This document shows, one piece after another, positions 49,089-60,522 of a DNA stretch of 64,000 nt. Where the stretch lies: NCBI GenBank assembly GCA_002319075.1, contig NVQB01000001.1, forward strand, positions 1,860,001-1,924,000, given 5' to 3'. The first letter of the stretch is position 1. Each line of letters starts with the position of its first letter. The DNA comes from Sphingobacteriaceae bacterium. GTDB lineage: Bacteria > Bacteroidota > Bacteroidia > B-17B0 > Aurantibacillaceae. The position numbers and the translations under genes were made by a program. The notes beneath the pieces were generated by a model, which saw nothing but the letters and a program-made list of their open reading frames with translations, was not told where the DNA came from and did no database searches.

Positions 49089-51677
49089 CTACTCAACAAT
49101 TAACTTACCACTTGCGTGGGTCGAATTATTTAAGGTAAGCCTGTAAAAATAGATTCCGCTTTGTTGGTTAAGTTCCACCACGTTACTTAGCTGCATTATT
49201 TTTTGTTCAGAAACAATTTGTCCTAATTGATTGAAGATTACAAAAGTCAAATCGCCTTCAGGCAGCACCGGCAATTCTAAAATGAATTTTTCTTTGCCCG
49301 GATTTGGGAACACTTTAAATGCTGATAGGGGGAAATTATCAGAAGCGAGTGAAGTACACAAAGAGACTGTAATTGTTTTCACAGCTGTTGTCGAACAATT
49401 ATTTACATCCTTACCGGTTACAGAATATACGGTGTTGGACGAAGGGGTAACAACTATGCTCGTGCTGGTAAATTGTCCTACACTCCAACTATAGGAAGCA
49501 GCTCCGGATACTGTTAAAGTAGCAGAATGGCCTTTGCAAATTACGTTTGAAGCAGTTAAGAGCGTTAAAGTAGGGGTGTTAAAAACCTGAATAGAAACTG
49601 TAGCGGTGCCGGTGCAATTAAATTCATTACTCCCCTGAACAGTATAAACAGTTGTTGTTTGTGGGTTTACAGTGTAGCTGTCGTTAACCGGACCTCCCGT
49701 CCATGAATACGTTATGGCGCCAGACGCTGTAAGGGTGCCAGAGCTAGCTTTACATTGAGCTGTAGGACCAGAAACCGCGATAGTGGGATTAGGATTTACT
49801 ATAAGGGTAACAACAGTGGTGTCGGTACAATTCAATAAACTAGTGCCTACAACCGTGTAATCCGTTGTTGTTTGTGGGGTTACTGTATAGGTATTTCCAA
49901 CAGGTCCGCCCGTCCACGAATAACTCGCTGCCCCGTTTGCCACGAAAATACCAGAATTGGAGATGCATAAATCTGTTGGTCCCGCCACGGTGATTGTTGG
50001 TGAAGGATTTACGGTAACATCAATACTGGCACGTGGCGACAAACTGCAAGAAGAAACCTCAGCATAATACGTATAAACTGTAGGAGTAGTTCCAGTATAC
50101 AAATTAGATGTGTTCAAAGTTGTTCCTGTTGCTACTGCCGAGCCCAAACTTGCAGTTAGGTACCAGTTAACAGATGAGTTTATACGGTGAAAAGCTGTTA
50201 GGGTGGCCGTTTGGCCATTGCAAATACTGGCTTGTGGAGCAGCAACGAGACTATCTACGGTACAAGGCAAAGAGATTCTCCAAAGGTCTTGCATATTATC
50301 AGTCAGAGAATTCGACGTACTGTCCAGCCCTTCGCCGCCAAGTAACCAGCCTTCACCCTTTGAAGTCGTCCAGTAAGTATTATAGGTTCTCGCCCCCGGA
50401 ATAGTTGAAGGAGAAGACAAACCCATGGTGCCATTTGTTCCATCAATATAGGGAAGGTTTGGACCTTTCACCCAGGTAAATTGATTGGTTGACAAATTAT
50501 ATTTAAAAACATCATTTAATAGGCCGATGGTAGTTGATGAAAATCCATCACCACCAAATATCCACAAATCACCCGAAAGATCTTTCCAACACGCTGCAGC
50601 CTGCCTGCATCCAGGCAGAACAGTTGAACCGGCTACACCGAGGGTTCCGTAATGTCCGAGCTGATTTGTAAGATTTGAACCTGCAATCCACGTCCAAACA
50701 CCTGTAGTGGGATCGTACTTCCACATATCATTCAGCCAGCCAACCGAGGTTAACGAACAATACCCTTTACCGCCAAACATGTAAAACATGCCATTGTGCT
50801 CCCATGCACTGGCAAACTCCGCAGCCCCCGGCCTGTTTGTACTTGCTGGCACATTTAGTGTGCCATTAACAGCATTTTGATTCCCGAAATTTGCTCCACC
50901 CATCCAGGTCCATTGATTTGTGCCGATATCAAATTTCCAAAGATCATTCAAATATACAAGTGACGTTGTTGTTGCGGCATATCCATGCCCACCAAACATC
51001 CATAAGTTACCATTGGCATCAACCCAACTGGCAGAAGCACGTCGCGCTCCCGGCATGTTACTAGACGAAGAAACTCCCAAAGTGCCATAAGATCCCGCGG
51101 TTACTGTAGCTGTAGTTCCCTTTACAAAGGTCCATTCGCTGGTAACAGGGTCAAATTTCCAAAGATCAGCAAGGCATTGTGCATTAACCTGCGGTGAAGT
51201 ATTACCAAAACCATCACCTCCAAACAGCCAGAACTTGCCCTGTGCGTCTACCCACGAAAAAGAAAATTCACGTGCACCAGGATTATTTGTAGGTGAAGCA
51301 ACACCTTGAGTGCCGTAAATGCTAAACTGGTTTGGAGACGTGCCTCCTTTTATAAAGGTCCATTCGTTAGTACTTACTGTGTACTTCCACAAATCTGAAT
51401 GCCAGTACTGGCCTGGTCCTTCACCACCAAACATCCATAAATCACCATTGCTATCAACCCAGGTGTTAGCTCCATGCCTGGTACCCGGTTCATTTGTCGG
51501 TGCAGAAACTCCAGGCGTACCAAAAACGCTTGCTATAGACGCGTTCAGGGCGCTTCCTCGCATCCAGGTAAAATCCTGAGCCAACAGGTTTGTATTAATT
51601 ACAATAAATGTACAAGCAACCAGCGTTCTGAAAATGTTTTGCTGAAAGAATAATGTCAGGGTGAATGTTCTTTTCAT
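49089..51677 (-). CDS. Kelch-type propeller protein with T9SS type A sorting domain
   Basis: 862 residues with a signal peptide region at the start. Residues about 35-470 hold seven kelch-like blades, each with phrases such as GTRHGANTWVDSNGDLWMFG, GARRASASWVDANGNLWMFG and NDLWKFD. A series of Ig/PKD-like modules follows (about 480-770; repeats of YSWTGGP...YTVTPQTTTDYTV). The last ~85 residues are the type A sorting domain (VFPNPGKEKFILEL, FVIFNQLGQIVSE, QQSGIYFYRL). Exported by the T9SS to the surface; role unknown, perhaps adhesive. Monocistronic by spacing. Confidence 0.92.
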   Translation of the reverse strand: MKRTFTLTLFFQQNIFRTLVACTFIVINTNLLAQDFTWMRGSALNASIASVFGTPGVSAPTNEPGTRHGANTWVDSNGDLWMFGGEGPGQYWHSDLWKYTVSTNEWTFIKGGTSPNQFSIYGTQGVASPTNNPGAREFSFSWVDAQGKFWLFGGDGFGNTSPQVNAQCLADLWKFDPVTSEWTFVKGTTATVTAGSYGTLGVSSSSNMPGARRASASWVDANGNLWMFGGHGYAATTTSLVYLNDLWKFDIGTNQWTWMGGANFGNQNAVNGTLNVPASTNRPGAAEFASAWEHNGMFYMFGGKGYCSLTSVGWLNDMWKYDPTTGVWTWIAGSNLTNQLGHYGTLGVAGSTVLPGCRQAAACWKDLSGDLWIFGGDGFSSTTIGLLNDVFKYNLSTNQFTWVKGPNLPYIDGTNGTMGLSSPSTIPGARTYNTYWTTSKGEGWLLGGEGLDSTSNSLTDNMQDLWRISLPCTVDSLVAAPQASICNGQTATLTAFHRINSSVNWYLTASLGSAVATGTTLNTSNLYTGTTPTVYTYYAEVSSCSLSPRASIDVTVNPSPTITVAGPTDLCISNSGIFVANGAASYSWTGGPVGNTYTVTPQTTTDYTVVGTSLLNCTDTTVVTLIVNPNPTIAVSGPTAQCKASSGTLTASGAITYSWTGGPVNDSYTVNPQTTTVYTVQGSNEFNCTGTATVSIQVFNTPTLTLLTASNVICKGHSATLTVSGAASYSWSVGQFTSTSIVVTPSSNTVYSVTGKDVNNCSTTAVKTITVSLCTSLASDNFPLSAFKVFPNPGKEKFILELPVLPEGDLTFVIFNQLGQIVSEQKIMQLSNVVELNQQSGIYFYRLTLNNSTHASGKLIVE

Positions 51678-54675: not shown

Positions 54676-56511
54676 ATGGGGAAGATTTATGATGAGTTCG
54701 TAAATGAACTAAATCAAATTGCCACAAAATATAAAAGTCAACCCGACCGGGAACTGGACAAACTCTTGCAACTAGCATTGGAAAGAGAAGAACTCGTAAC
54801 TACGGCTTACCGCGCAAGTTTTTTACACAAAAATATTGAAAGACTCCACGTAGATGAAGATTTAAAAACAATTTTCAGACAAGCATTCATCTGGATATGG
54901 AAGGACGAAGACATGCACACTATTTATACCCGCGGCGCTCTTCTTAAATCCGGTAATTATTCACACAAATTTAAAACATTCATTAGCCAGTTCCAGGGCT
55001 TTATTGGAGGCTGGTCGGGCTCCATCATTCAACATCTCAGTTGGAAAGAGGCTCCCGTTTCTTTAGCCCTGGCCAAATGCATCCTCTCCTTCGGAAAAAT
55101 ATCAGGAAAAATTCCCAAAGAAATACGAAATGAATTAAAACACGGATCATTTAAAAACTTCTGCGCGTTTAATATGGATGCAGAAAATACAGCCCGCGTT
55201 TGTTGGGAAAGAATTATCGCCCTGGCAAAAAAAGATCCGCGTTATGGTGAGGAGCATCTTAAAGATTTTCAACGTATTATTTTTGACGAAACCAGGCACG
55301 AAAATGTTTTCCGAATTATTTTCGAGAATCTAACACAAGAAGATAAATTAATTGAGGGCTCCGTTAAAGAAGATATTATTTCTCAACTCAAAAATGTCAG
55401 CGATTATTTTTTACCAATCAAGTTTCGCAATAAAACCAGCAATCCTGTTGGCAGCGGAGGCAAAGTATGGGTAGCAGAAAATAATAGTAGCCGCAACAAA
55501 TACGATTTTTTTATTGACGAATTAAAAAAAACAGAATTAGTATCTGCATTAACACAGAAAGCAAAGGCCAATAACCAGGCTATTGAAAACTTAAAAATAG
55601 TGATTAAAGTTTCTTTCTCAATGGGGTACAACAAAGAAGACTTATCTCCGATAGCGGATGCTGTTTTGCTTAAAAAGTTTGCAGAATATATTTACAACCT
55701 TGGATTCAAAACCATTAAGGTAATTGACATAGACTCTATCTACACTAATTTTTATTATAACAGATCCGTTGCTGAGCTTGCCAGGTATTTTCAGTTTGAA
55801 TCTGAATATTATCAAATTGTAAATGCTACAGAAGAATTGGAAGAACACCATTTTACACGTGGTATCGGAAATTATAGAGTTTCAAAAACCTGGAAGGACT
55901 CAGAGTTTAGAATAAATTTCGCCAAGATCAAAAGCCATCCCAGCGAATTGGCTCTTTTATCCATAAGCAATTTAGAATGGTTAACGGGCAGCGCCAGGGA
56001 ATTTGTTTTTGTTGATCGCACTGTAAATAGAGAAACTACTACTTGCATGTTATTGGATGATTTTCCACCAAACTTCACATTGGTAGAAGCCTATGATTTA
56101 GTACCTATTGGCATCTTAGGGGTTATGGGCTGCAAAAGGCCTATAAATCCCAGGAGGTTTTATTTTGGAACAGATCTACTATCGGTAGATCTGGCACTTG
56201 CCAAACATTTAAAAATAGTTCCGATTCCTGAAAAAACATCTCTGCGAAATACGCTCTACTGGTTTGGCATAGAAAGCCTGGACTATAAAATTGAAGGAGA
56301 AGACTCTGTCATAAAAGAATGGAAGTCTCCCACCAAAAATTATTTTTGGGCTTTTTTAGGTCTTATATCATTACCGGTTTATCAGCTACTAAGCAATAAA
56401 GGACAGTTGTTTGTACCAAAAATGGATACTGCAAATTTTCCAGCCAAAAACAAGCCTGGTATAATTTCAGTCCTCAGGCTGGTAAATAGAAAAATAACTA
56501 ATCTTCCTTAG
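54676..56511 (+). CDS. Ferritin-like diiron domain fused to DUF362 domain
   Basis: 611 residues. N-terminal helical domain (about 1-235) with a full set of diiron ligands in the usual order: Glu39 (EREELV), E78xxH81 (DEDMH), Glu170 (MDAENTA), E205xxH208 (DETRH). The C-terminal part (about 280-560) fits DUF362: INFAKIKSHPSELALLSISN, DLVPIGILGVMGCKRPINPR, FGTDLLSVDLALAKHL. The cysteine clusters of ferredoxin-linked DUF362 proteins are missing. A hydrophobic stretch (FWAFLGLISLPVYQLL) near 555-575 may associate with membrane. DUF362 function is not established. Divergent from the hydroxylase-CrtI-hydrolase operon, so a shared oxidative pathway is likely. Confidence 0.85.
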   Translation: MGKIYDEFVNELNQIATKYKSQPDRELDKLLQLALEREELVTTAYRASFLHKNIERLHVDEDLKTIFRQAFIWIWKDEDMHTIYTRGALLKSGNYSHKFKTFISQFQGFIGGWSGSIIQHLSWKEAPVSLALAKCILSFGKISGKIPKEIRNELKHGSFKNFCAFNMDAENTARVCWERIIALAKKDPRYGEEHLKDFQRIIFDETRHENVFRIIFENLTQEDKLIEGSVKEDIISQLKNVSDYFLPIKFRNKTSNPVGSGGKVWVAENNSSRNKYDFFIDELKKTELVSALTQKAKANNQAIENLKIVIKVSFSMGYNKEDLSPIADAVLLKKFAEYIYNLGFKTIKVIDIDSIYTNFYYNRSVAELARYFQFESEYYQIVNATEELEEHHFTRGIGNYRVSKTWKDSEFRINFAKIKSHPSELALLSISNLEWLTGSAREFVFVDRTVNRETTTCMLLDDFPPNFTLVEAYDLVPIGILGVMGCKRPINPRRFYFGTDLLSVDLALAKHLKIVPIPEKTSLRNTLYWFGIESLDYKIEGEDSVIKEWKSPTKNYFWAFLGLISLPVYQLLSNKGQLFVPKMDTANFPAKNKPGIISVLRLVNRKITNLP

Positions 56512-56551: not shown

Positions 56552-56570
56552 AGGCGAATTTGCCTTTTTT
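56552..56570 (+). terminator. Weak terminator after the diiron-DUF362 gene
   Basis: AGGC pairs with GCCT around a 6-nt loop, followed by six T; it overlaps the end of the convergent gene by 2 bp. Confidence 0.5.
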
Positions 56571-59033: not shown

Positions 59034-59927
59034 ATGATATTCCCTTCAGGTCAGGCAAAAATGAAAACGGCATTATCACACCTTCCAGAACACAAGCAGG
59101 CTGAGCTAAAGGCCATTAAGGAGGCATTGATCCCACGCTATGCGGAGATTGAAATGATCATCCTGTTTGGAAGCTACGCGCGTGGAACTTTTGTGGAGGA
59201 TAAATACGTAGAAAAAGGCATTACTTACGAATACAAATCAGATTACGATTTGTTGATTATGATGAGTAAGAATGGCCATGCTAACAGCGACACCTTAACT
59301 TCATCTATTACAGGAAGGATCGAAGAACTAAATCTGCCTACGCCGGTAAATCCAATTTTTCACGGGGTGGAATTTGTAAACCATGAACTACGTGAGGGAA
59401 ATTATTTCTTTGACGAGATCAAGCGTGATGGTGTTTTACTATTTACGACTAACCGTTACCAACTTGAAGAGAAGCGAGAATTTAGTGCGGAAGAAGCTCA
59501 GAGCAAAGCAAACGAATATTTTAATGGGTGGTTTGAAAGTGCCAACAACTTTTTCAAAGGTTATAATTTCTATTTAAGTGAAGGAAATAATAAGGAGGCT
59601 GCATTTTCACTTCACCAAGCGACAGAAAGGTTCTATGGTTCAGTTCAATTAGTATTCACGGGCTACAAACCAAAAACACACGATATTGAAATTTTAGGCA
59701 AGCTGGCAAAAGCAGTTGATATGGAGTTTGGGAAGGTATTTCCTCGTGCCACTGTACAAGAGCGCCAGCGCTTTTCTTTGCTCAAAAAAGCTTATGTTGA
59801 AGCGCGTTACAATATGGATTACACCATTAGCAAAGCCGACCTGGAATATTTAAGTGAACGTGTGCAATTGCTTCGTGATTTAACAGAGAAGATCTGTAAA
59901 CAAAAAATAGAGAGCTTTACAAAATAA
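59034..59927 (+). CDS. Minimal nucleotidyltransferase fused to HEPN domain
   Basis: 297 residues; a second ATG at 59061 is also possible. The N-terminal MNT domain has the nucleotidyltransferase signature GSYARG (46-51) and the metal-binding Asp pair in SDYDLL (70 and 72), with a 16-residue insertion between. The C-terminal HEPN domain (about 140-290; AFSLHQATERFYGSVQLVF, YNMDYTISKADLEYLSERVQ) is helical. I see no RX4-6H RNase motif. Separate MNT and HEPN genes form toxin-antitoxin pairs in which MNT AMPylates HEPN; here they are one chain. It is in the accessory region, often a site for such genes. Confidence 0.88.
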   Translation: MIFPSGQAKMKTALSHLPEHKQAELKAIKEALIPRYAEIEMIILFGSYARGTFVEDKYVEKGITYEYKSDYDLLIMMSKNGHANSDTLTSSITGRIEELNLPTPVNPIFHGVEFVNHELREGNYFFDEIKRDGVLLFTTNRYQLEEKREFSAEEAQSKANEYFNGWFESANNFFKGYNFYLSEGNNKEAAFSLHQATERFYGSVQLVFTGYKPKTHDIEILGKLAKAVDMEFGKVFPRATVQERQRFSLLKKAYVEARYNMDYTISKADLEYLSERVQLLRDLTEKICKQKIESFTK

Positions 59928-60036: not shown

Positions 60037-60522
60037 ATGAAATCAACAGTAAAACAACTCTCAAAATTAAAAGGCCTGGGCGATATTGAAACGCCTGAAA
60101 ACAATCCAATACTACTTCATTTCCTTAGCCCATTGGAGCTTGCGGCCTATAAAAACAAATTCCAACCATTCAAATACAACCTCGATGGCGTGATTCTCGA
60201 CATTGAGCCAAACATGAGTAAAGAGCTATACTGGCAATCGAAACGGCGCGCCACAGCCATTCGCCAGCTTTTACAAAAAAGTAAACAAAAAATTCTGAAG
60301 CAAGATCCCGAACTCAAACGTTTCTTACACAAACCTCTCAAACATCATAATCTTCCCACACGCATTTATCACGTTTTAAAAGGCAACGGCTGCTATAACA
60401 TGGCGGAAGTAGCTCAGAAAGGTGAAGCAGGACTAAAACGGATGCGCGGCATGGGTAAAGTTCAAATCGCCCACATCATGAAGCTGTTTATGGATAACGG
60501 GTGCGGAGATCTGTTTTTATAG
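60037..60522 (+). CDS. Small protein with RNA polymerase alpha-CTD-like helix-hairpin-helix domain
   Basis: 161 residues. The C-terminal 60 residues (LPTRIYHVLKGNGCYNMAEV, then LKRMRGMGKVQIAHIMKLFM) follow the alpha-CTD pattern: L..R..N.L...G......L......L.....G......I...L...G. The N-terminal 100 residues are Lys-rich and helical without a recognised family. Alpha-CTD-like domains bind DNA minor grooves and transcription factors in RNA polymerase, but the fold also serves other nucleic-acid binding roles. Preceded by 109 bp with no clear promoter. Confidence 0.75.
   Translation: MKSTVKQLSKLKGLGDIETPENNPILLHFLSPLELAAYKNKFQPFKYNLDGVILDIEPNMSKELYWQSKRRATAIRQLLQKSKQKILKQDPELKRFLHKPLKHHNLPTRIYHVLKGNGCYNMAEVAQKGEAGLKRMRGMGKVQIAHIMKLFMDNGCGDLFL

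Follow-up and report, generated by a model that had tools for sequence, protein, structure and literature searches.

A two-domain Bacteroidota protein that joins a putative dimetal carboxylate domain to a DUF362 domain

What is to be made of a protein in which a helical domain with a putative dimetal site is joined to a DUF362 domain, and is the joined form real in the first place? The question is raised by a single gene in the window, by which we mean the whole 64,000-nucleotide stretch of DNA analysed here. The gene runs on the forward strand from an ATG at 54676 to a stop at 56511 and encodes a protein of 611 amino acids (P0001) in one intact reading frame with no internal stop, in agreement with the open reading frame, strand and coordinates of the first-pass annotation. 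It is the single match in the host genome, which comprises 5.65 Mb in two contigs. A full-length relative (P0002, locus L003) was found in a metagenome-assembled genome of Fluviicola, also of the Bacteroidota. The two proteins are 55% identical over residues 1-611, have the same layout and begin with the common start MGKIYDE. The occurrence of the same layout in two separate assemblies argues against the fusion being an artefact, and we conclude that the fusion protein is genuine, as had been claimed earlier. A terminator-like hairpin lies 3' of the gene (56552-56565, + strand), although the consensus scan that detected it found 7 hairpins between 51500 and 57500 against 4.8 expected in shuffles.

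The pattern of divergence between the two proteins fits two folded domains that are under strong coding constraint, with a looser linker between them. Amino acid identity is 58.7% in residues 1-235 and 55.6% in residues 301-611, and falls to 41.5% in the more variable linker, residues 236-300 (55381-55575, + strand). Codon positions 1, 2 and 3 are changed at 0.34, 0.19 and 0.62 of sites, respectively, in residues 1-235 and at 0.37, 0.22 and 0.59 in residues 301-611, compared to 0.45, 0.45 and 0.63 in the linker. Strongly hydrophobic segments are absent from both proteins (the highest hydrophobicity mean over 19 residues is 1.46), and thus we take the fusion protein to be soluble.

The fusion is rare and is new to the searches of this analysis. 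The phylogenetic profile called for by the first-pass annotation found the full-length form, among the genomes searched, only in the window's own genome and in that of Fluviicola. Within the host's family it was present in 1 of 87 genomes (its own) and within the relative's family in 1 of 150 (that of P0002). A BLAST search of a phylum draw gave a full-length match in 1 of 395 genomes, again the host, and one further protein, from genome G255, that matched in the DUF362 part only. These genome draws overlap and their counts are not additive. A profile search of a class draw of 395 genomes returned the host and three weak rows that were left aside, two of them after inspection: one is within a helicase-like open reading frame (G606) and one at a kinase/regulator pair (G371), both named by eye, and the third has three internal stops (G781). 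A profile of the N-terminal domain (E ≤ 0.01) returned the host and four rows from the 395 phylum genomes. One of these overlies a 637-residue open reading frame on the opposite strand (L021), one is a stretch without any His (L024) and the remaining two contain internal stops. A weak row from G401, in an order draw of the same 87 genomes as the family draw, was judged by eye to be unrelated. Plasmids gave no match to P0001 at E 1e-5 or to P0002 at E 10, and two scans of viral contigs gave none. A shared-peptide scan of species genomes, which reaches close relatives only, gave 18 stretches with one relative, P0002, among them. The searches have limited power to detect distant relatives, and coverage beyond the Bacteroidota came from the close-relative scan, the plasmids and the viral contigs. 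Literature searches found no paper pairing DUF362 with ferritin in the collection covered, and none on the fusion among the matches listed (the best 20 of 91 in one case); a further DUF362 lead was dropped, as the matching strings in the passages concerned read DUF3623 (PMC12423673).

The C-terminal part was said in the first-pass annotation to be a DUF362 domain without ferredoxin cysteines, and both halves of that claim held. Against Pfam DUF362 (PF04015), P0001 scores 17.0 bits (E 0.0065) as a whole and 18.3 bits for its C-terminal part, both below the gathering cut-off of 24. In contrast, P0002 is above the cut-off with 24.9 bits as a whole and 26.9 bits for its C-terminal part, and it spans positions 1-198 of the 200 in the profile where P0001 spans 1-119. 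Additionally, the G255 protein, which has 369 residues and is clearly DUF362 (86.4 bits), matches P0001 residues 274-544 by BLAST (E 6.7e-17) and is 25-26% identical to the C-terminal part of the fusion. Despite the sub-threshold score of P0001, the score of P0002 and the BLAST link lead us to regard the assignment of this part to DUF362 as well supported and, in our view, settled. We place the region at residues 308-508 (55597-56199, + strand), an extent taken from P0002, as P0001's own match covers 308-425. In a three-way alignment of P0001, P0002 and the G255 protein, the common polar positions include K311, D328, W406, D408, R412 and K417, and further S420, H421, N432, R448, D500 and D505 (full-length numbering).

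No CxxC motif occurs in P0001 or P0002, and ferredoxin cysteines of the CxxCxxC type are absent; each protein has five scattered cysteines, three of which are at common positions. The passages on DUF362 in two papers describe iron-sulfur regions nested in the domain (PMC7955657) and iron-sulfur proteins that carry it (PMC5742341). The C-terminal 300 residues of the fusion have the K/S-H, N and paired D positions in common with a clear member of the family. The fusion differs from it in being very divergent, in lacking the ferredoxin cysteines and in carrying an extra 235-residue N-terminal domain. According to PMC11770544, DUF362 and DUF2088, the family of the nickel-pincer lactate racemase LarA, belong to one Pfam clan, CL0471; however, no LarA family match is among the Pfam rows of P0001. 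Among the literature passages on DUF362 covered here, none assigns it a function, and sequence searches found no solved structure of any relative.

The N-terminal domain (residues 1-235; 54676-55380, + strand) carries the putative ligands in the order E, ExxH, E, ExxH. As first reported, these are E39 (codon 54790-54792), E78 and H81 of E78-D-M-H81 (54907-54918), E170 (55183-55185) and E205 and H208 of E205-T-R-H208 (55288-55299), all on the + strand, and all six are identical in P0002. The domain of P0001 has ExxH motifs at 55, 78, 153 and 205, and only those at 78 and 205 exist in P0002, where they are the only ones. In shuffles of the single sequence, a loose form of the pattern arose in 609 of 20,000 cases and an all-Glu form in 388 of 20,000. 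Column shuffles that required the pattern to be conserved in both proteins gave it in 84 of 20,000, and all of these tests flatter the pattern somewhat, as the spacing limits were chosen with it in view. Conservation is common in residues 1-235 regardless, where 14 of the 22 Glu and 5 of the 8 His are retained, and the probability that all six ligands are conserved is 0.049 among random Glu/His choices. The argument as a whole is built on two sequences. The pattern thus appears to go beyond what chance readily gives, short of proof of a metal site. No significant internal two-fold (two-hairpin) repeat was found in the domain.

The spacing of the carboxylate ligands is a further point of comparison. 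The last ligand of acyl-ACP desaturase is H232, which differs from the H237 named in the passage used here. Of that passage (PMC4777478), only the glutamate positions were used for the spacing, which they give as 38/53/33; the positions tabulated for ribonucleotide reductase (RNR) R2a give 31/89/34 (PMC13060455). The 39/92/35 of P0001 appears close to the ferritin-like range, with an E78-E170 gap of 92 that is R2-like (89), not desaturase-like (53). In their ligand order, compatible spacing and DExxH style, the two fusion proteins resemble the ferritin-like dimetal carboxylate proteins, namely RNR R2, acyl-ACP desaturase, AurF, DUF455 and MiaE, and differ from them in that no significant sequence or fold match was obtained for the N-terminal domain.

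Searches of the domain against Pfam, NCBIfam, PHROGs and PDB sequences gave nothing above chance, the best rows being unrelated families at E 0.03-0.2. These chance-level rows included an ETV6 fusion in PDB (E 0.032), Omega_Repress in Pfam (E 0.051) and a PHROG of unknown function (E 0.09). With hhalign, a two-row alignment of the domain was compared with 83 targets, comprising 5 ferritin-like proteins and 78 background open frames. Rank 1 was taken by a DUF455 protein, L027, with a score of 27.5 against 25.5 for the best background frame and 21.9 for the next, in a short match with a small lead over background and an hhalign probability of only 7-8%. The E205/H208 helix is in register with the DETRH helix of L027, 23 residues being aligned with 48% identity. 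A trimmed copy outscored every one of 40 shuffles (top shuffle 19.6). L027 scores 41.3 bits against the DUF455 model (cut-off 34.3), and its helix was aligned by phmmer with the DEMRH helix of bacterioferritin (E 0.0032). A stronger DUF455 protein, L026 (98.1 bits), ranked 25 of 83 in the same register. Taken as a whole, the profile comparison suggests that the domain matches a single DUF455 protein, in register but weakly. The AurF profile (rank 53) and two proteins that we take by eye to be MiaE-like (ranks 36 and 75) fell in the background; the latter came up in the DUF455 search below its cut-off (18.7-22.9 bits against 34.3). A plasmid homologue search returned 1 record for DUF455 and 24 for AurF, none of which entered the profiles. 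The L027 protein, which through its DETRH helix comes closest to the domain in the profile comparison, is encoded by a 483-codon, DUF455-type open frame at L027:1390-2838 (- strand).

Structure prediction, which the first-pass annotation had put forward as a check, was run with AlphaFold on two-row alignments and gave a pLDDT of 40.7 for the full length and of 48.6 (pTM 0.47) for the N-terminal domain. Confidence of this order, 41 and 49 in round figures, is expected from two sequences and is too low to judge ligand geometry. The model of the domain is mainly helical; the models are too poor to display a bundle or a site, and fold searches with the model of the domain mean little. On this low-confidence model, Foldseek gave no match at E ≤ 0.001 and the best VIA-align match was Lsp1 (Z 4.4). 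A row for RNR R2 (5olk; Z 3.2 for 73 residues within positions 124-206 of the model) is noise and was discounted as support. No ferritin-like protein rose above noise in these searches, an outcome that on such a model excludes nothing. Of the earlier label "ferritin-like diiron" domain, what stands is the complete and conserved ligand set; the family name found no match above chance, usable model or fold match to lean on.

These results are best read as pointing to a dimetal-carboxylate oxidoreductase fused to a domain of the LarA clan; metal binding, the bundle fold, O2 chemistry, the DUF362 pocket, the substrate and any role in the neighbouring gene set are inferred. The N-terminal helical bundle would hold a carboxylate-bridged dimetal, probably diiron, site formed by E39, E78, H81, E170, E205 and H208, and this site would activate O2 or peroxide. 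Substrate binding or processing would fall to the DUF362 domain, whose clan also contains lactate racemase, in a pocket that probably uses K311, W406, D408, R412, K417, S420, H421, N432, D500 and D505. The two domains may then perform linked steps on one small molecule. Judging from the conserved ligands, the presence of a dimetal site in the N-terminal domain is likely, and for O2 chemistry on a substrate the chances seem about even. The case for the whole, a soluble two-domain metalloenzyme in which the dimetal bundle and the DUF362 domain carry out linked steps, is likewise evenly poised. A bolder version, improbable in our estimate, supposes a swap of redox modules. DUF362 proteins often carry iron-sulfur clusters, and in the fusion an O2-using dimetal carboxylate domain, from a sequence family not described before, would have taken the place of this anaerobic-type module. 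The resulting bifunctional enzyme would combine O2 chemistry with lactate-racemase-clan chemistry on one substrate.

Two other readings of the N-terminal domain have to be weighed against this. The domain may be helical without any catalytic dimetal site, with a Glu/His pattern that is due in part to chance; the protein would then be a DUF362 enzyme whose extension has a structural role or binds a partner. Such an outcome is possible, if somewhat unlikely: it agrees with the lack of a ferritin-like family match by sequence beyond a weak local profile match and with the frequency of the loose pattern in single-sequence shuffles, but it does not sit well with the conservation of all six ligands, with the drop to 84 cases when the shuffled pattern had to be conserved or with the absence from P0002 of every N-terminal ExxH motif other than the two that supply ligands. 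Alternatively, a ferritin-like domain might handle iron, O2 or peroxide in the manner of rubrerythrin or a ferroxidase, protecting or supplying the DUF362 active site rather than oxidising a substrate. The only in-register profile match points this way, as it leads to DUF455 and from there to bacterioferritin. We nevertheless hold this reading to be quite unlikely, since neither protein has the CxxC of a rubredoxin-type electron donor and the 92 residues from E78 to E170 exceed the corresponding stretch of a plain ferritin core.

A third proposal concerns the pathway and not the mechanism, and its standing is not exclusive of the other readings. In it the fusion would serve the neighbouring operon of hydroxylase, FAD oxidoreductase and hydrolase as its dedicated tailoring enzyme, acting in a polyene or carotenoid step. 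The operon lies on the - strand, divergent from the fusion gene. Its first gene (P0004, 53999-54619) encodes a membrane protein of the FA_hydroxylase/sterol-desaturase family (51.3 bits, cut-off 31). The start at TTG 54619 is a guess; as listed, from ATG 54778, the open reading frame overlaps the fusion gene by 103 bases, and TTG 54619 or 54589 are likelier starts. The second (P0003, 52614-54002) encodes an FAD oxidoreductase with an Amino_oxidase match (70.2 bits, cut-off 19.8). Its best NCBIfam match, crtI_fam, reaches 142.1 bits and is below the cut-off of 238.1, and thus we call it CrtI-like rather than CrtI; among proteins of solved structure, a gamma-carotene desaturase is its best match (E 1.5e-23). 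The third (P0005, 51798-52613) encodes an alpha/beta hydrolase (95.5 bits, cut-off 25.8) with a QDMGG motif, which we take to be of the Asp-nucleophile type of epoxide hydrolases and dehalogenases. Adjoining the hydrolase gene, at 49089-51677 (- strand), is a gene for an 862-residue protein with Kelch repeats and, as a mark of type IX secretion, a Por secretion tail.

The arrangement favours the operon proposal to a degree. The three neighbours are tightly packed, with a 4-base overlap and abutting reading frames, and only 57 or 87 bp separate the likely starts of the fusion gene and P0004. Furthermore, the fusion and a P0003 match at E ≤ 1e-40 are both absent from the 86 other genomes searched in the family, which is consistent with joint arrival. 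In Fluviicola, however, the P0002 gene is back to back with a gene for a UbiG-type methyltransferase (152.8 bits, cut-off 102.95), with genes that we take by eye to be nuo-type a little beyond, and the best P0003 match in that genome, an assembly whose completeness is not established, is 27% identical over residues 5-283. The hydroxylase/FAD setting is thus not conserved. An O2-dependent step in a polyene pathway, as first suggested, was drawn from the neighbourhood, which P0002 does not share; a link of the fusion to such a pathway seems unlikely to us, and its role as the operon's dedicated tailoring enzyme has a similarly small chance. A divergent tailoring-type gene beside the fusion in both genomes is suggestive, with two cases. 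The methyltransferase gene is at L003:9118-9903 (- strand) and its product is above an equivalog cut-off; the window has no clear match to it (best E 0.17). Bacteroidota use menaquinone.

The value of the fusion is that the partner domain, with its putative metal site open to test, offers a handle on DUF362. Should the dimetal site prove real, metal content and O2 consumption would be directly measurable and could guide the hunt for the substrate, and the N-terminal domain would represent a family of dimetal proteins that is new in sequence.

Two other genes of the window, both on the + strand, deserve mention. One (59034-59927) encodes a 297-residue protein that joins nucleotidyltransferase (Polbeta) and HEPN domains, which more often occur apart, as the two genes of an MNT/HEPN toxin-antitoxin pair. 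The other (60037-60522) encodes a 161-residue protein, far shorter than the rpoA product, with a match to the RNA polymerase alpha C-terminal domain (26.4 bits, cut-off 23.8).
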